Shown: positions 706-57,144 of the stretch, piece after piece | Position numbering within the stretch: the first letter of the stretch is position 1 | Layout: each line of letters opens with the position of its first letter | Assembly (NCBI RefSeq): GCF_932294415.1 | Contig: NC_065537.1 | Location: forward strand, 50,884,302-50,948,301 | Length of the DNA stretch: 64,000 nt | From: Quercus robur | Taxonomy: Eukaryota; Streptophyta; Magnoliopsida; Fagales; Fagaceae | Direction: 5' to 3' | Program-made: the position numbers and the translations under genes | The notes under the pieces: model-generated | Database searches by the model: none | The model's input: the letters and a program-made list of their open reading frames with translations, nothing else | What the model was told of the DNA's origin: nothing

Positions 706-714
706 AAATTAAAA

Positions 715-1375
715 GGGATAATTACACATTATCCACCTGTGGTTTACCTCTAATTCTAAGTGCCTACCCGTGGTTTGAATTTTGACACTTTGCCCACCTG
801 TGATTATCTCCGTCTATGTGCCGTGTGCCCACCTCTCCCTCACCGTTACTCTAACATAGGAAATAGATCAAAGGTTACTCCCATACAGATCAAAACACCC
901 TCTTTTCCAAAAACTACTCAGTCACTCTCATCCCGCTTACTCACCAAAAATCACTCAGTGTCACTCCCAAAAATCACTCAAAATCACTCACTCACTCCCC
1001 CTTCACCGTTAACGTAAGAAATAGTTGAAAAGTCACTCCCATTTCCCATTCGTTCACTCTTACTTATGAAAAATCACTGAGTGTCACTCCCAAGAATCAC
1101 TCAAAATCACTCACTCACTCACTCCCATCGTTCGTGCAAACCGAACCAACGAAGACGGCTTCTCCGTTCAACTGTGGCAGGAAGACTCACTCCTGGGTAT
1201 CGCGCTTCGCTTCACTTGACTGGGATTTGAAAGCTTGAGGTCGTGCATGCAAACCGATTTGAGGAGGATCAAGATTATTGCCTCTGTTCTGTTCAGCCGT
1301 TGCAGGTAGATTAGGATTTTGCGTTTTAATCTTTGAAATCTAGGGTTCTGAATTGGGTCTTAAAATGCTGGTGGA
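715..1375 (+). repeat. Left terminal inverted repeat of the MULE
   Basis: This segment is complementary to 7085-7623 over most of its length, up to the shared stretch ending near CTAGGGTTCTGAATTGGG and AAAATGCT. The outer 120 bp contain three spaced copies of a motif like ACCTGTGGTTT, which could be transposase binding sites (inference). The left repeat is longer than the right because it holds an extra copy of the CACTC-rich section (about 960-1110). A likely splice donor (TTGCAG/GTAGAT, about 1309) occurs in both repeats, so each repeat probably supplies the promoter and 5' leader exon of the gene beside it. Confidence 0.85.
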
Positions 1376-2048
1376 TTATTGTATGTTGTAGGCTTTGATG
1401 ATTGTTCTGTTTAGTATTACCCGCCTCTCCCTCACCCGATCATGCTCATGATTGTTCTGTTGTAGGCTTTCTCTCTGCCGTGATTTGTATGGTTTAATTG
1501 TTTTTGTGGAATGTTACCAAATTGAAATCAGTTTGATCATTGGTTACTGCTTCTGTCAATTTGAAATCAGTTTGATTTACTGCTTCTGTTACCAAATTGA
1601 TCATTGGTTTTGATTTTCAGATTAATTAGAATGTTACTGGTTGAGTCTGTTGTGGACAGCATGTTATAGTTACCCTCCATTCCCTTTAAAAGTTGAATAA
1701 TGCTCATGATTTTATTGAAATAATTATTCAGTCAATTATGATATAAGCTGGATGGTTATATATGCATTTTTAAAATAAGTCCAACTGCATTCTGAGTTCT
1801 CTTGTTTGCTCAATTCTGTTTTGAAATAAGTTTGTGATAATAATCGACCAGTTAACTAATGGTGCTGCTCTTATTACTACTCTTATCCATATAGGTATTG
1901 AGTCTTTATTAACAATAGAACTAGATGCCTCATTTTTATATGTATGCTTTAAGGCTTTGAACAACCATTTGGTAATGTGGATGCTGACTTAGAACTAGAT
2001 GCCTCATTTTTTATCATCTTCATTTATTCTGTTGTGTTTTACATGCAG

Positions 2049-5000
2049 ATGGCTGACTTAGTATTCAATTTTGAGATTCATCATGGTGGGCAGTTTGTGT
2101 GGAACCCGGATTTGGAATATTTAGGAGGTAGTACTTCTTTTGTTGATAATGTTGACCCAGATAGACTTAGTTAGTTTGAAATACAAGATATTTGTTGTGA
2201 TGTGGGGGCACTTAGTACAAGTAGATATCATTATCTTATTCCTGGAGGTAATTTGGAGCAAGGGTTAAGGCTTATAAATGAAGATGATGATGTTGTTTAT
2301 ATGTGTGAGATCCATGCTGCATGGCCTACAGATAAGATAACACTATATGTTGAGGGTGGTGAGGAGCCACTTGCTGTTGAACAACCATTTGGTAATAAGG
2401 AAGTAGCAGATGATGATGATGATGTGCATGAGGTGGGTGAGAGTGATGATGATGTGCATGAGGTGCATGAGGGAGGTAATGTGGATGCTGAAGGAGGTGA
2501 TAGTGATTGGTTAGAGGAAGGGTTTGAGGGGCCAAATTTTGATGATGATGTTTTTGGAAATGTAGATGATGGGCCATCTACACATGCAGCCCCACATAGG
2601 CCCTCTGAAGGAGATGATGGGTCATCTACACATGCAGCCCCACATAGGCCCTCTGAAGGAGATGATGGGCCATCTACCCATGAGGATGTACATGTGTATG
2701 CAGCCCCACATAGGAATACTGCAGCTGACAATGACCCACCTCTTGAAGAGGGTGAATGGATTGACCCACCTCTTGAAGATGACATGGAAAGTCTAGTAGG
2801 GTCTGATGATGATCAGCCAGCACCAGCTGCAAAAGAACCTGAGTTTAATGTCCAAACTGACATGAGAAAGCCAGAGTTAAGGAAAGGAATGAAGTTTCCA
2901 AACTCTAAAGTATTTAGGGAGGCATTGAGGGAATATGCGATAAAGAAGCCAGTAAATATCAAGTTCAAGCTGAATGAGAAGAAGAAGATATCTGTTTATT
3001 GCATCAATGAATGTGGATGGAGGTGTTATGCATCTCAACTACCTGAAGAGTTGACATTCCAAATAAAGACATTCAATCCGAAGTGCACTTGCCCTAGATC
3101 CTTCAAACACAGCCAAGTGACTTCAACTTATGTTGCAAAGAAGTTTATGCAGGAGTTTGACAAAAACCCCAATTGGAAAGTGGCTGGTGTTCAACATCAT
3201 GTGAAGCAAGCACTTGAAGTTGACATAAGTTACAGTCAAGTGTATAGGGCAAAAAGGAAAGCTACTGACTTGGTTACTGGGGATGAACAGCTGCAATATG
3301 GGAAACTTAGGGATTATGCAGAGATGATAAGATTGACTGATAAAGGAAGTAGGGTTATTTTGCAAACTGAAATGGAAGATGAAAATGCACAGCCGAAATT
3401 TAAGAGAATGTATATTAGGTATAATGCACAAAAACTTGGGTTTTTGGGAGGTTGTAGACCAATTATTGGTTTAGATGGGTGCCACTTGAAAGGCAGATTT
3501 GGGGGGCAAATACTTTCTGCCATAGCTAGAGATGCAAATGACAACATTTTCCCAGTTGCATTTGCTGTTGTTGAGCAAGAAAACAAAGATTCATGGGTAT
3601 GGTTTCTGCAGCAATTTTCAGATGACATTGGGGATCCACAGCAACTTAATCTGGTCTTCATCAGTGACAGACAAAAGGTATGATAATTGAGATGCTGTTT
3701 TGTAGACATTTTTAAAGTTCAATAATAATTGAGATGCTGTTTTGTAACAAAGATGCTGTTTTGTAACAATTGTACTAACATATTTACTTGTTCTGTTTTG
3801 TAACTTGTATAAGGGCCTTATACCTGCAATTGAGATGCTGTTCCCAACTTGTGAGCATAGATATTGTGTGAAGCATATCTATAATAATTTCAAAATGGAT
3901 CATAAGGGCTTGGAGTTGAAGGATGCACTGTGGAGATGTGCTAGAGCCACAACAGTGAGGGAGTTTGAAAGAAGAATGCAGGAAATGAAGGATTTGGATG
4001 TCAAGGCATGGGAGTATCTTGCTGACATCAACCCTGCACAATGGTCTAAGTCTCACTTTAGTAGTAGAGTTTTGTGTGATTGTTTAGCTAATAACTTGAG
4101 TGAGTCTTTTAATGCCATGATTTTAGAAGCTAGGGATAAGCCAATTTTAGCAATGTTGGAGTGGATTAGAGTTAGGCTCATGACCAAACAATACAAAAAG
4201 ATGAGAGGTATAGCAAAATACACTGGAAAAGTTTGTCCTAATATTCAAGACAAATTAGAGAAGTTAAAACATGATTCTATACCTTTCAGTGCTACTCCAG
4301 CAGGCAGCTTCATGTATGAGGTTAATAATGGTCATGAGAGACATGTGGTTGACTTGGCTAAGAAAGCATGCAGCTGTAGGAGTTGGGATTTGACAGGACT
4401 TCCCTGCAAACATGGGATCTCTGCTATTGTTAAGAACCTGGAGAAAGTGGAGGACTATGTGCATCCTTGTTACTTAAAAGAGACATTTGCTGAAACATAC
4501 AAAGAGATAATACAGCCAATGCCTGGCCAGTCTGAGTGGGTTAAGACTAACCAACCTGCTCCTGTTGCTCCTCATGTGTATAAACCACCTGGCCGACCAC
4601 CAAAGCAAAGAAAAAGAGATCCTGAAGAGCCAAGGAACCCTTATAGAGTTTCTAGGATGAACAAGACAATCAAGTGTGGGAAGTGCAAGAAAGAAGGACA
4701 TAATGCAAGAGGGTGCAAGGCAGGCATCACTGGTGAAACTCCATGGCAGAGAAGAGATAGACTTGCTAAATCAGCAGCTGTAAGTATTTCCATGCTTTGA
4801 ACTATATTCATTTCCTCAAGTATTTCGAGTGTGTAACTTGTACTACCCTCTTTGTAGGCACAAGGCAGTAAATCTACAAAAACAAAGCAGACTGCAACAC
4901 CTCAAACTGCATCCCAGCCACCAAGTGCTATATCTCAGAGTGCATACAGAGCTTTTGATCAAACTGCATCTCAACCTGCACCAAACAATAGATCTGAGGC

Positions 5001-5301
5001 TGCAACTCAACCTGCAACTAGATCTAAGGCTAACTGGTTCTCTTCACCCTCACAACCAAGCTTCCATACCCTAGAGAGACATGAGATTCTTTACCATCTC
5101 AGGCACCTCTGGCTTGTTCTATTTTGTTTATTTTTTTTCCTCTTACTTGCTATTGTTGGATCATCTTGCTAATTGTTGGATCATCTTGCTAACTGTTGGA
5201 TTTTGGTTATGCAGCCAAGTGCATCTGCTAGGGGGTTTAAAGGCAGAAAGTTTCAACCAGTTGGTAGAAAGGGCAAGAATGCAGTTGGCAAGGGCACCTA
5301 A
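2049..5301 (+). pseudogene. MULE transposase (MuDR-A type), spliced, one in-frame stop
   Basis: Transposase that would cut and rejoin the element ends. The ATG at 2049 follows a splice acceptor (TTTTACATGCAG). Visible domains in order: a PB1-like N-terminal module (FEIHHGGQF, 2049 to about 2345); an acidic Asp/Glu/His-rich linker with three copies of a 16-20 residue unit (DDGPSTHAAPHRPSEG, 2560-2720); a MuDR DNA-binding region (KGMKFPNSKVFREALREYA, CGWRCYAS, PKCTCPRSFKHSQV); the MULE catalytic domain with GLDGCHLKG and VFISDRQKGL carrying two catalytic Asp and NLSESFN as candidate site of the Glu; a SWIM zinc finger (ACSCRSWDLTGLPCKH); and a CCHC knuckle (CGKCKKEGHNARGC). Introns: 3678-3813 (GT-AG) and about 4780-4857; a third has a less certain donor, and the last exon is 5215-5301. 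A TAG at 2172-2174 interrupts the PB1-like module; a start at a later Met would lose that part only. Otherwise the frame is open, so the gene looks recently disabled. Confidence 0.9.
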
Positions 5302-6062
5302 AGTAGTAAATGACAACTTGGAAGATGTTAAAGTTTCAACAACTTTTTTGTTATAGTTCACTTGTTTAATGTATATGTCAAGTGTCAAAAATAATATTGG
5401 CAATTTCGGTTGGAAATATGTATGTCTGAGCACTAGTGGACTAGTTGGTGGGTTTTAATTGGAAGATGTGTAAAGTCACAGGATGTGCCAAAAACAATGT
5501 TGGCAATTTTGTATGCATGTGATATAAAACTTTATTAATGTCTCCACTTTTATTTTGTAAAGTCACTGAATAGGTTGCTCTTCTTTTATTTTGTGAAGTC
5601 ACATGATGTGCTCAATGACTCTTCACTTTTATTAATGTTAATGTGCATTGAAATAGGATAAAGTATTTTGTTGTGTTGTGCTTGTCTTGTGCTTTTGGTG
5701 GACTCTGTTTTTCTTGTCTTGTTCTTTTGGTGGATTTACACAGGTGTATGTATTCACACAACAAATCATGTGTCTGTGTAAAACATGTTCCATTTATAGG
5801 CAGGTGTGCAACAAATCATGTATATGTGTAAAACATGTTCCATTTATAGGCAGGTGTGCATTGACACAGGTGTATATATTGAACCAACATGTTCCATTCA
5901 AGTTATTATGTTATTAACATTTCCACATAACACTTTGTGCCAATATATATCAATCACAGGATGAAGTAAAAATGAATAAAAAAATTATACTAAACAATAT
6001 TTGCACAAAAACAACACTTTCCATTTCAATTACCCAATAACATTTCAACATCCCACCAAGCA

Positions 6063-6648
6063 TCATGACAGTTTAAGGTTCCTCGCTCTTACATTATTGT
6101 TCACTGAGGCAAAACACAACAACAACATTACAAAAATGAAAAATAACCATGACAAAACTAATGCCATCTTGTACAATCTCTCACTCTCTCTAACTCTCTT
6201 AAGTTTCTCTCTAATTTCTACATAAAGCTCATGAGTTTCTCTTTCCCTCCGGTTACATCTTTCTTCCATTTCCTTAGTTGTCATTTCTCTCTTATTTGCA
6301 AGCTGCAATTCATTCTCAAGCATACTTATCCTTTCACGGTCACTCTTACAAGTTTCGTTATCCACCCACTGAAAGAAGCCACATTTGGGACCAACCTGAG
6401 CATTACAATTATAACAATTAATTTCACAGTTCACAATTAATCACAACTAATAATTCAATTCAACTCAATTCAAATACAACAATGTAATTGTTACTTACAT
6501 TAAATTGACTACAACCAACGAATCTTCTTCCATAGTTACCAGCTTTTCGACTTGTTCTTAGCGCACAATTCTCAAGGGTACATAAATGACCATCTCCAGC
6601 ACGGTAGAAACCACTAGTTGTAGAGCCATTGCCAGTTGATGAAGACAT
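6063..6648 (-). CDS. GRF-type zinc finger, coiled-coil, tail-anchored protein carried by the MULE
   Basis: Two exons, 6499-6648 and 6063-6395, with clean GTAAGT donor and CAG acceptor in phase 0, give 160 residues with no lesion. Residues 19-62 form a GRF zinc finger: HLC at 21-23, then RTSRKAGNYGRRFVGC (Cys46) and KCGFFQWVD (Cys55), including the diagnostic G-R-F/FFQW pattern. Residues 65-122 are a charged coiled coil (ISMLENELQLANKREM). Residues 128-148 are a strongly hydrophobic helix (MALVLSWLFFIFVMLLLCF) followed by a short basic tail, which suggests a tail-anchored membrane protein. GRF fingers bind single-stranded nucleic acid in TOP3, APE2 and NEIL3; a role here is inference. It sits opposite the transposase, ends 761 bp from it, and its promoter lies in the right terminal repeat, the position of mudrB in maize MuDR. 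No similarity to mudrB is seen. Confidence 0.82.
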
Positions 6649-7084
6649 AGCAAAAATTTGTTACAAGCTTATAGACCAACAAATCTGTTACGAGTGGCAA
6701 GAATCAACTCATCTAAATTTAGTAACAATTACTCATGCTACAACCACATTGTTAAAAAAGTTGATGGGCCACAGACCTTTATTTTAACGTAATAAGAAAA
6801 TGCAGATATATATTCATAACTGTTAAGCCAGTAATAAGAAAATGCAGATATAAACCAGTTCCATGGTTAAGCAAGAACCGAATTTGGAAGAAAGAATTTG
6901 GAAGAAAGACTACCCAATTTTAAAACCCACAGGAATTTTAACAAAGTGACCGTGCATATTAAGTGAGGAAGAAAGAAATACAATTATCACCGGGCATTTT
7001 AAAACCCACCACCGGCAGAAATGGGTTTTTAAAACCCACCACCGATGACAACATTTTAAAACCCACCACCGGCACCGGCATTTT

Positions 7085-7623
7085 AAATCCACTAGCATTT
7101 TAAGACCCAATTCAGAACCCTAGATTTCAAAGATTAAAACGCAAAATCCTAATCTACCTGCAACGGCTGAACAGAACAGCAATAAACTCCCAGTCAAGTG
7201 AAGCGAAGCGCGATACCCAATCAAGCTTTAAACTCCCAGTCAAGTGAAGCGAAGCGCGATACCCATGAGTGAGTCTTCCTGCCACAGATGAACGGAGAAG
7301 CTGTCTATCTCGGTTCGCTTTGCATGAACGATGGGAGTGAGTGAGTGAGTGAGTGATTTTGAGTGATTTTTGGGAGTGACACTGAGTGATTTTTGGTGAG
7401 CAAGCGGATGAGAGTGACTGAGTGGTTTTTGGAAAAGTGAGTGTTTTGATCTGGATGGGAGTGACTTTGATCTATTTCTTATGTTAGAGTAACGGTGAGG
7501 GAGAGGTGGGCACACGGCACATAGACGGAGATAATCACAGGTGGGTAAAGTGTCAAAATTCAAACCACGGGTAGGCACTTAGAATTAGAGGTAAACCACA
7601 GGTGGGTAATGTGTAATTATCCC
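7085..7623 (-). repeat. Right terminal inverted repeat of the MULE
   Basis: It is the inverse of the left repeat. It differs by a local tandem duplication of about 45 bp (about 7186-7265, containing AGTCAAGTGAAGCGAAGCGC twice). Just inside it, at about 6985-7085, are three copies of a motif like GGTGGTGGGTTTTAAAA. On the minus strand this repeat would drive the GRF-zinc-finger gene. Confidence 0.82.
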
Positions 7624-7632
7624 AAATTAAAA

Positions 7633-17201: not shown

Positions 17202-19042
17202 TGCATAATATGAAAAAAATAAGCCTAAATACATTACAATGCTATATAAGTAAAAATGTAAAAATAAAATCTAAACAAGGGGAAATTACAACTTACCTAC
17301 CTGTGGTTTCATTTTTGACATTACCCACTAGTGGTTCATTCCATCAATGCTCCGTAACCCATCTCCACAAATACTGTTAGTCTAACACATTTTATCCCAA
17401 GATCAAAACACAAAACAGATCAAACACTCCTTTCCCTAAAACATTATCTGACGCTTGATCTTAGACCGACGAAGAAGGAGATCCTCTCATCATTTCTTGC
17501 TGGAATTCATTTTGGGTGCTAATCTGTTAACCTAGGGTTCTAATAGTTTTTGGAAATTAGATAAAGACATTGTTAAATTTGGGCATTTGAATTTTTGGGT
17601 TTTTCTTTTCTTCAATTCTTGGAATTCTGGGTTTGCCTATAAACTTGAACAGGATAGAGGAATGGGTTCAATCAGCCCGTATCATATATGATCTTGATAT
17701 AGTATATACCATAGATATTATTCAATGCTTAATCTTTAGTATACTTGTTTGTAAATTTTTAGAAGTGGAAGGGATACTTAGTGCTAGTTGATAGTTCCCT
17801 CCAAGTGTCAACTTTCCAATAAAGCTATGGATATTTTTTTCTCCTTTGTTCAACTTTTATGTCACAGGAATCAGAAGCTATGTGAAAACTGAGACTACTG
17901 TGTGAAAACTGAAAACTAAGTCTACTTTTTTCCATATTGGTTTTTGAGTGGCTGAGCAAGTGTGAGACTGTGTTTTGGGGAAAGGAGTATTTGATCTGTT
18001 TTGTGTTTTGATTTTGGGATAAAATGTGTCGACATGTGGGGGAGGTGGGTTATGGAGTATTAATGGAATGAATCATAGGTAGGTTAAGTGTCAAAAATGA
18101 AACCACAGATAGGCAAGTTGAATTTCGGGCAAATCACAAGTAGGTAAGCTATAATTTTCCCAAAATATTTAAGACAAATATAATATTTTGAAAATTAACA
18201 TACCTCTTAGAAAGAAAATGAAGATATTGTGAGAAAAATTATGGAAGTTTAATTTTTTAAGTCTAAACGAAATGATGATTTCTATTGGACAAATGTTGAG
18301 ACAAATAATTATATTACCCAATTCGTTGAATCCGACTCTTATAATTTTGTATTGAAGTTAGTTTTATGCAGAAAATTGAAAAATTTTCCTCATTTCTCAT
18401 GAATTTTTAGATCTATCCGTATCTATTCAAAGCATGTAAAGTTATAAATGTATTCAAATTTTTTGAATTTTATAAATACATTAAAATAAATGCATCTGCT
18501 ATTACTTAATAGTGCGACATAAATACGAAATTTAGACGAGGGGAAAATCTAAATGAAAAGAATGTCATACAATATATCACTTGGCAGAACCTCTAATTTG
18601 GTCTTAAAAAGAAGAACAAAACTTTACAGTTTATACCTTCCCATGATGGGAAAAGAGTTTGAAGCAGGCTAATAATAAAACCATTTCCTAAACTTAATTA
18701 CCAATAAAAATTATAATAACAACATTAAATTCAAAATCAATAATTTTTCATACTGAACTTCAGTATATAATTAAATAAATATTTTCTTCCAATTTCTTTA
18801 ATTGAAAATTTTAATCAATATTAAACAACACAGTGAAAGTATAGCTCAATCTAAATATTCTTTTACGTCTCTCAAAAAAAAAAAAAAAAAAAAAAAAAAA
18901 ACTTTTACAGTTTAGCCATAATCACGTCATTGGTTGGCCATTTATTTATTTATTTTTGATTTTGCAAAAATTATAAAATAGAAATGAGTTACTTCCATCA
19001 AACTCCTTGTAAAAAGTATATCTATATTTTCTAATGTATATA
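17202..19042. repeat. Segmental duplication, left copy (right copy 55260-57144)
   Basis: From GCATAATATGAAAAAAATAA to AATGTATATAAAGAGTAG the sequence matches 55260-57144 in the same orientation, about 95 per cent by eye, including the enclosed short MULE and its flanks. The junctions are sharp: outside them the two loci differ. About 36 kb separate the copies. No gene inside; 18162-19042 is AT-rich with a poly(A) run at 18875-18901. Confidence 0.88.
17279..18161. mobile_element. Non-autonomous MULE, sister family to the 715-7623 element
   Basis: Ends GGGGAAATTACAACTTAC (17279) and its near complement ATAATTTTCCC (18161). The inverted repeats of about 190 bp hold the spaced TACCTGTGGTTT motif, a TTTTTGACA block and AACCCATCTCC, the same architecture and largely the same words as the big MULE's ends. 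The core has CTAGGGTTCTAATAG. No coding frame. Compared with the copy at 55337, one ~34-bp motif repeat near the left end is missing. Confidence 0.7.
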
Positions 19043-55259: not shown

Positions 55260-57144
55260 CGCATAATATGAAAAAAATAAGCCTAAACACATTACAATGC
55301 TACATAAGTAAAAACGTAAAAATTAAATCTTAATAAGGGGAAATTACAACTTACTCACATGTGGTTTGCCCAAAATTCAACTTGCCTACCTGTGGTTTCA
55401 TTTTTGACACATTACCTACATGTGGTTCATTCCATCAATGCTCTGTAACCCACCTCCTCAAATGTCGTTAGTCTAACACATTTTATCCCAAAATCAGAAC
55501 ACAAAACAGATCAAACACTCATTTTCCTAAAACTTTATCTCACGCTTGATCTTAGACGGACGAAGAAGGAGACCCTCTCATCATTTCTTGCTTGAATTCA
55601 TTCCGGGTACTAATCTGTTAACCTAGGGTTCTAATAGTTTTTGGAAATTAGATAAAGACATTGTTAAATCTGGGCATTTGAATTTTTGGGTTTTTCTTTT
55701 CTTCAATTCTTGGAATTCTGGGTTTGCTTATAAACTTGAACATGACAAAGGAATGGGTTCAATCAGCCCATATCATATATGATCTTGATATAGTATATAC
55801 TATAGATATTATTCAAGGCTTAATCTTTAGTATACTTGTTTGTAATTTTTTAGAAGTGGAAGGGATACTTAGTGCTAGTTGGTAGTTCCCTCCAAGTGTC
55901 AACTTTCCAATAAAGCTATGGATAGTTTTTCTCCTTTGTTCAACTTTTATGTCACAGGAATCAGAAGCTATGTGAAAACTGAGACTACTCTCTGAAAACT
56001 GAAAACTAAGTCTACTTTTTTCCATATTGGTTTTGAGTGGGTGAGCAAGTGTGAGACTGTGTTTTGGGGAAAGGAGTGTTTGATCTATTTTGTGTTTTGA
56101 TTTTGGGATAAAATGTGTTAGACTAACGACATGTGGGGAAGGTGGGTTATGGAGCATAGACGGAATGAACCATAGGTGGGTTAAGTGTCAAAAATGAAAT
56201 CATAGATAGACGAGTTGAATTTCGGGCAAACCACAAGTAGGTAAGTTATAATTTCCCCCAAATATTTAAGACAAACATAATATTTTGAAAATTAACATAC
56301 CTGTTAGAAAGAAAATGAAGATATTGTGAGAAAAATTATGGAAGTTTAATTTTTAAGTCTAAAAGAAATGATGATTTCTATTGGACAAATGTTGAGACAA
56401 ATAATCATATTATCCAATTTATTGAATCCGACTCTTGCAATTTTGTATTGAAGTCATTCTTATGAAGAAAATTGAAAAATTTTCTTCATTCCTACATTTT
56501 TCATGAATTCTTAAATCCATCTGTATCTATCCAAAGCATGTAAAGTTATAAATGTATTCAAATTCTTTGAATTTTATAAATACATTGAAATAAATGCATT
56601 TGCTATTACTTAATAGTGTAACATAAATACGAAATTTAGACAAGGGGGAAACCTAAATGAAAAAAATGTCATACAATATACCACTTGACAGAACCTCTAG
56701 TCTAGTCTTAAAAAGAAGAACAAAACTTTACAGTTTATACCTTCCAACCATGATGGGAAAAGAGTTTGAAGCAAGTTAATAATGAAACCATTTCCTAAAC
56801 TTAATTACCAATAAAAATTATAATAACAACATTAAATTCAAAATCAATAGTTTTTCATACTAAACTTTATTATATAATTAAATAAATATTTTCTTCCAAT
56901 TTTTTTTAATTGAAAATTTTAATCAATATTAAACAACTCAGTGAAAGTATAGCTCAATCTAAATATTCTTTTACGTTTCTCAAAAAAAAAAATTCTTTTA
57001 CAGTTTAGCCATAATTACCTTATTGGTTGGCCATTTATTTATTTTTTGATTTTGCCAAAATTGTAAAACAGAAATGAGTTACTTCCATCAAACTCCTTGT
57101 AAAAAGTAAATCTATATTTTTTTAATGTATATAAAGAGTAGTGT
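55260..57144. repeat. Segmental duplication, right copy (left copy 17202-19042)
   Basis: Same order and orientation as the left copy, including the enclosed short MULE and the AT-rich 880 bp after it. No gene. Confidence 0.88.
55337..56258. mobile_element. Non-autonomous MULE, duplicate of 17279-18161
   Basis: Ends GGGGAAATTACAACTTAC and GTAAGTTATAATTTCCCC are perfect complements. The inverted repeats of about 220 bp contain three spaced (T)ACCTGTGGTTT-type motifs, ACATGTGGTTT being the outermost. This copy is more complete than the one at 17279. A clean 9-bp target duplication is not seen. Confidence 0.72.

Follow-up and report, generated by a model that had tools for sequence, protein, structure and literature searches.

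A gene for a GRF zinc-finger protein is almost certainly a standard accessory gene of a lineage of Mutator-like elements (MULEs) in Quercus robur, where it lies downstream of the transposase gene and convergent to it. The same protein design, likewise convergent to a transposase, is found in a second, unrelated transposon superfamily of this genome. The reference element occupies positions 715–7623 of the window, by which we mean the entire stretch of 64,000 nucleotides that was analysed (C4:50884302–50948301, in a searched genome of 785.7 Mb). The best explanation overall, for which the chances appear even, is that the GRF gene is an inherited and selected second gene of a plant MULE lineage, standing in the convergent place that mudrB has in maize MuDR, and that its product would act together with the transposase. 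The first half of this explanation, an inherited second gene, is a result of computation that follows from the position and orientation of the gene, its presence at most of the related transposases, the place of its intron, and the selection between families.

The GRF gene of the window element is read from the minus strand in two exons. Exon 1 (6499..6648) holds the start codon and the finger's first half, whereas exon 2 (6063..6395) holds its second half, a long helix, a C-terminal hydrophobic helix, and a short tail; a GT-AG intron of 103 bp (6396..6498) separates them within the finger, in phase 0. The original prediction had described this spliced gene (6063–6648) as intact, and its product indeed runs to 160 residues with no internal stop.

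Recurrence and constraint of the GRF gene in MULEs

The genome was queried with the window's GRF protein (best 150 of 179 matches used), with the GRF protein of a diverged family, termed C below (best 150 of 164 matches used), and with transposase exon 2 (all 122 matches used, from 1172 first-look candidates). The 300 GRF rows were merged into 176 loci and joined to the transposases by coordinate with a limit of 8 kb, such that all counts of MULE-associated GRF loci given here refer to the GRF matches listed. A GRF locus was found within 8 kb of 109 of the 122 transposases, and every one of these 109 lies downstream of its transposase, on the opposite strand, and 0.9–3.9 kb off; the proposal that the GRF gene travels with the element is therefore sustained. 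The association extends over transposases at 80% identity or more (31 of 33), at 69–77% (61 of 63), and at 63–68% (17 of 26). By comparison, the density of GRF loci predicts about 0.0009 loci per transposase by chance, and of 50 control MULE-domain matches (the first 50 of 150 listed) only 3 have a GRF locus within 8 kb; these three come from a single triplicated block, in which a family A element is also present. This density and this control rule out the possibility that GRF genes are simply everywhere by chance. Conversely, the list contains no transposase close to 67 of the 176 GRF loci, a count that says little because the transposase list comprises 122 of the 1172 first-look candidates.

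The GRF gene is present in four MULE families (A, B, C, and D), the diverged loci L032, L034, and L035 included. Family A, to which the window element belongs, was read in 22 copies (20 that were fetched, out of about 34 loci, besides the window and L029), and the GRF frame is open in 14 of them, one of which (L051) is without the intron's AG. Family B, with transposases at 73–75% and GRF proteins at 46% identity to the window, is intronless; its 14 copies read (12 plus L030 and L031) were picked from stop-free rows, so that their 14 open frames of 14 constitute no test. Family C (transposase identity 66%) unites L032, L033, and L035 at a DNA identity of mostly 86–89%, with an intron in L032 and an intronless, decayed gene in L035, and family D is represented by one copy, L034, which has the intron. 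The position of the intron, inside the finger and in phase 0, is common to families A, C, and D; therefore, the intron was probably present in their common ancestor and was probably lost exactly in family B and in L035, where it is missing.

Two further observations concern these families. The exact loss of the intron in family B, and again in L035 (2455–2976) as compared with L032 (5046–5138 plus 4609–5001), looks as if the gene had been copied back from a spliced transcript. Separately, three family A elements of equal score lie at C40:5864645, 5894755, and 5924865 with a spacing of 30,110 bp, likely a tandem triplication that includes another MULE domain.

Selection was measured between families as the ratio of non-synonymous to synonymous substitution (dN/dS), with each family represented by a single copy (A by the window) and 1000 bootstraps for each pair. 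The lowest ratios were obtained for B–C (0.38) and A–C (0.45), with dN reaching dS in none of the 1000 bootstraps of either pair, followed by A–D (0.53; 4 of 1000 bootstraps), A–B (0.55; 6 of 1000), C–D (0.57; 6 of 1000), and B–D (0.67; 36 of 1000). The constraint is strongest in the finger, for which the B–C comparison gives synonymous differences (pS) of 0.55 against non-synonymous differences (pN) of 0.10; the membrane stretch retains 8 of 22 identical residues between A and D, yet it is hydrophobic where measured. Within family A, the 14 open copies give a pN/pS of 0.40, a value that is biased low by the exclusion of the eight broken copies, and the comparison of family C with the decayed L035 gives a dN/dS of 1.8. 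Neutral decay accounts poorly for the open GRF frame of the window, as only 408 of 20,000 simulated GRF genes stayed open when half of the window-to-C differences were placed at random. The GRF gene is thus taken as being under moderate, real, and long-term constraint.

Several results weigh against an inherited and selected gene. Thirteen of the 122 transposases have no GRF match in the join, although for two of them a GRF locus does follow at the larger distances of 12.6 and 18.8 kb, with side and strand as expected, a pattern that nested insertions would give, and a third (C3:23228420, locus L034) holds a diverged GRF gene that the queries overlooked. The gene is broken in 8 of the 22 family A copies read, and L033, one of four diverged loci fetched, shows no GRF gene in 7.5 kb, its similarity to L032 stopping at the transposase. 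Moreover, the coil and the tail of the GRF protein are free to diverge, and transposase exon 2 has a dN/dS of 0.09–0.12 among families A, B, and C, relative to which the GRF ratios are several times higher. Comparisons of the window with older family A copies give 0.40 for L048 (dN at least dS in 13 of 1000 bootstraps) and 0.55 for L053 (48 of 1000). Finally, the 14 copies of family B show a pN/pS of 1.10 and hence no constraint among young copies, as expected of any young transposon copies and equally of a gene that is dispensable in the short term. The comparison of synonymous with non-synonymous change that the original prediction had put forward shows constraint between families (0.38–0.67) and none among the young copies of family B; the between-family result and the census together come out in favour of that prediction.

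The family B ratio would suit a one-off capture or neutral passenger, in which a host gene was taken up once and has no function, and so would the GRF frames of the same design that lie outside transposons (L009 and L015, described below). This alternative, which the original prediction had held open, is contradicted by the presence of the gene at 109 of 122 transposases, in four families and always convergent, by between-family ratios well under 1, and by the intron that A, C, and D have at the same place. The census and the between-family selection lead us to reject it, and it is left as highly improbable.

The GRF protein and its relatives outside the MULEs

In the 160-residue window protein, the GRF finger is the only Pfam domain above its cut-off (PF06839, 1.1e-7, 32.3 bits versus a cut-off of 25.9), which the proteins of family B (22.6) and family D (23.9) narrowly miss; the four GRF cysteines are invariant in all six aligned proteins. 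The solved chains nearest to the finger are those of NEIL3 (7omk and 7jl5, 1.9e-7), followed by AP lyase 5u6z at only 0.027, and the finger is predicted to be of the single-strand-binding type. NEIL3 and APE2 have a four-cysteine GRF finger like that of the window protein; in these two, however, the fingers are domains of DNA-repair enzymes, whereas in the window protein the finger is the sole domain, carried by a helix whose end is predicted to lie in a membrane. A single-sequence structure model of exon 2 alone, made without an alignment, consists of one long helix of about 95 residues (mean pLDDT 86.8, pTM 0.46).

Residues 127–145 have a mean hydropathy of 2.81, with 15 residues after this best window, and codons 127–148 (6102..6167, minus strand) are predicted to form a membrane helix. 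A hydropathy of 2.8 was reached by none of 5000 shuffles of the protein, and a hydrophobic end recurs in the proteins of family B, L009, L015, and the Harbinger family discussed next (measured), as well as in families C and D (by eye); a chance hydrophobic end is thereby ruled out. With one predicted membrane helix within about 30 residues of the C-terminus, as in tail-anchored proteins, the GRF product is very probably membrane-anchored. The second gene thus has the GRF finger and, by prediction, the helical, tail-anchor-like remainder that had been attributed to it at the outset.

The GRF Pfam profile has 20 matches in the genome, all of which were fetched, and 11 of them form a second repeat family (L011, L013, L014, L016, L018, and L021–L026). 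Its protein joins a GRF finger to a hydrophobic C-terminus through a short linker, which by eye appears helical; the fetched frames are mostly broken, with L023 open. In copy L016, a DDE_Tnp_4 transposase (1e-9) is convergent to the GRF gene. The copy assembled from L025, L068, and L069 (C37:5746100–5760099), the one copy in which the ends were judged (by eye), spans about 10.0 kb between 15-bp matching ends with TTA on both sides, and also encodes a Myb_DNA-bind_3 gene (1.3e-20). We take a DDE_Tnp_4 transposase, a Myb-like open reading frame (ORF), and a TTA duplication to mark the PIF/Harbinger superfamily, and all three were found here together with short matching ends. The second family thus shares its transposase, its Myb_DNA-bind_3 gene, and its TTA duplications with PIF/Harbinger elements that have a Myb-like ORF1; unlike the usual PIF/Harbinger element, it adds a third, convergent gene for a protein with a GRF finger and a hydrophobic C-terminus.

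A census of this family was conducted with the L023 GRF copy and the transposase as queries, using 58 of 150 transposase rows, including every row at 58% identity or more. A transposase row lies within 8 kb of 31 of 36 GRF loci, convergent in all 31 cases. Seen from the other side, a convergent GRF locus accompanies 30 of the 36 transposase rows with at least 58% identity; L018 is among the five GRF loci without a transposase. In addition, 13 of the 20 best GRF census rows are stop-free, 12 of them at 75–85% identity to the query and one being the query itself.

Two further GRF frames, L009:4881–5309 and L015:4852–5271, lie in tandem on C40, 18 kb apart. Both are open over 140–143 residues and encode a GRF finger (36.3 bits in L009 and 33.9 bits in L015) with a hydrophobic end, and neither a MULE nor a Harbinger transposase nor the Myb gene was found in the 10 kb examined at each locus. 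The GRF frame of L009 follows on the same strand about 300 bases behind a C-JID frame (8.6e-18), which is in turn preceded by a leucine-rich frame. L015 shows a comparable arrangement, its GRF frame also just downstream of such frames on the same strand, with an NB-ARC frame (7.6e-32) besides. From these domains, the neighbours appear to be resistance genes of the TIR-NB-LRR type, and the GRF frame could be either a small neighbouring gene in its own right or a final exon that would fuse an extra domain to the tandem resistance genes. As both loci are without either transposase, the GRF module exists outside these transposons too. The two frames may preserve the likeness of a captured source or may be relics of a transposon gene; because frames of the same design lie by resistance-gene frames without transposases, it is plausible that the transposon GRF gene was captured from the host, as the original prediction had suggested.

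These findings bear on the origin of the gene, for which recurrent recruitment has a little less than an even chance: the MULEs and PIF/Harbinger would each have taken up a member of a plant family of GRF-helix-membrane proteins for a function that they needed, e.g., docking at the nuclear envelope. Such an origin is compatible with the best explanation given above. The presence of the same design in two superfamilies, convergent in both, and of similar frames next to resistance-gene frames argues for it, as does the alignment of the L009 and Harbinger proteins across the finger and the C-terminus at 4e-7. On the other side, the similarity of the fingers by itself gives no order of events, L009 and L015 may derive from a transposon gene, so that transfer could have run in either direction, and the gene may also have passed between MULE and PIF/Harbinger.

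Possible roles of the GRF protein

DNA transposons are usually thought to need a nuclear transposase and little else. Judged from sequence, a helper in transposition would be the favoured role of the GRF protein, with anti-silencing next. Each terminal repeat would drive its own gene, and the GRF product would insert through its C-terminus in the endoplasmic reticulum (ER) or the nuclear envelope, such that the finger would be exposed on the side of the cytosol or nucleoplasm; the protein may self-associate through its long helix, while the finger could bind single-stranded or forked DNA, or transposon RNA. Working with the transposase, it might tether this enzyme or the intermediates of transposition to the nuclear envelope, where the ends at excision or insertion would be protected and repaired. 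This mechanism on transposition intermediates is put forward tentatively, its chances being appreciably below even. A still broader proposal, and a somewhat more doubtful one, is that plant DNA transposons of two or more unrelated superfamilies (MULE and PIF/Harbinger) adopted the GRF finger with its tail-anchored helix as a general helper and keep it convergent to the transposase, as cut-and-paste transposition in plants would have a step at the nuclear envelope or ER. A conserved membrane-anchored partner, if true, adds a cell-biological step to transposition, and the occurrence of the same design in two superfamilies of one genome makes direct testing possible.

The two genes of maize MuDR are convergent. 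Like the window element, MuDR has two genes, one of them for a MULE transposase, and long terminal inverted repeats; unlike MuDR, the window element has as its second gene one for a GRF finger and a C-terminal hydrophobic helix, and we know of no relation of the GRF gene to mudrB. Similarly, Arabidopsis Hiun, which we take to be VANDAL21, is a MULE with accessory genes (vanB and vanC) beside its transposase. In the available part of PMC6446971, MuDR is described as having two ORFs, of which mudrB apparently acts in integration, and vanC of Hiun as having an anti-silencing function; the Hiun accessory proteins differ by name from the window protein, and that part ascribes neither a GRF finger nor a membrane helix to them.

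By analogy with VANC of Hiun, the GRF protein could counter host methylation or the production of small RNAs, its anchor placing it where transposon RNA is processed. An anti-silencing accessory gene already exists in a MULE (PMC6446971, in the part available), and the long inverted repeats would be natural sources of silencing RNA. Moreover, 12 'GRF zinc finger' genes are listed in an excerpt of PMC6293580 as differentially methylated between two peanut pod stages, which fits transposon genes and does not imply a function. Against this, the GRF fold indicates binding of single-stranded or forked DNA, with no tie to methylation here; anti-silencing is considered unlikely, and a helper in transposition remains the preferred reading.

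A literature search with GRF and transposon terms, covering open-licence articles mostly by their titles and the beginnings of abstracts, returned no article in which MULE or Harbinger elements are described as carrying GRF genes, although Repbase notes on such genes may exist; likewise, the term 'GRF' is absent from the main text of PMC6446971. The layout is known from MuDR, while novelty appears to lie in the GRF protein and in its recurrence across a second superfamily, and the interest of the finding rests mostly on this recurrence. By extension, plant annotations may include transposon genes among their multi-copy 'GRF zinc finger' genes.

Boundaries and transposase of the window element

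The sequence at 715–7623 is a complete MULE, with every part of the predicted element in place. It is flanked by two perfectly matching copies of a 9-bp target-site duplication, AAATTAAAA, at 706..714 and 7624..7632, a length inside the range of 8–11 bp given for MULEs in the available part of PMC6446971. The left terminal inverted repeat (715..1377, plus strand) leads the transposase gene and the right one (7086..7623, minus strand) leads the GRF gene; the two repeats are 96% identical across the outer 283 bp and 87% across an inner 320 bp. The MuDR-like layout of two genes that was originally predicted is therefore borne out by the convergent genes with a terminal repeat leading each, by the duplication, and by the Pfam domains.

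The transposase gene starts with an ATG at 2049 on the plus strand. Exon 1 (2049..3677) encodes DBD_Tnp_Mut (PF03108, 8.5e-12) and the first part of the MULE domain (PF10551, 7.6e-10), exon 2 (3814..4779) encodes the SWIM finger (PF04434, 1.3e-7), and one or more 3' exons follow at 4859..5300. The reading frame of exons 1 and 2 together is 865 codons long and is interrupted once, by a stop at codon 42. The stop noted in the original prediction is thus real in the window copy; it is absent from the sister copy L029 and therefore does not characterise the family as a whole. L029 is 97–99% identical to the window in three main aligned blocks, keeps the GRF gene, and has a 9-bp duplication of its own, TAAAAAGAA.

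Other traces of the terminal repeats were also encountered. At L013:2620–4153, 1.5 kb lie between terminal repeats of the window element's kind (about 81%), likely a non-autonomous derivative. Within the window, 18065–18161 and 56155–56257 resemble the outermost 100 bases of the terminal repeat at about 75% and are likely old related ends.

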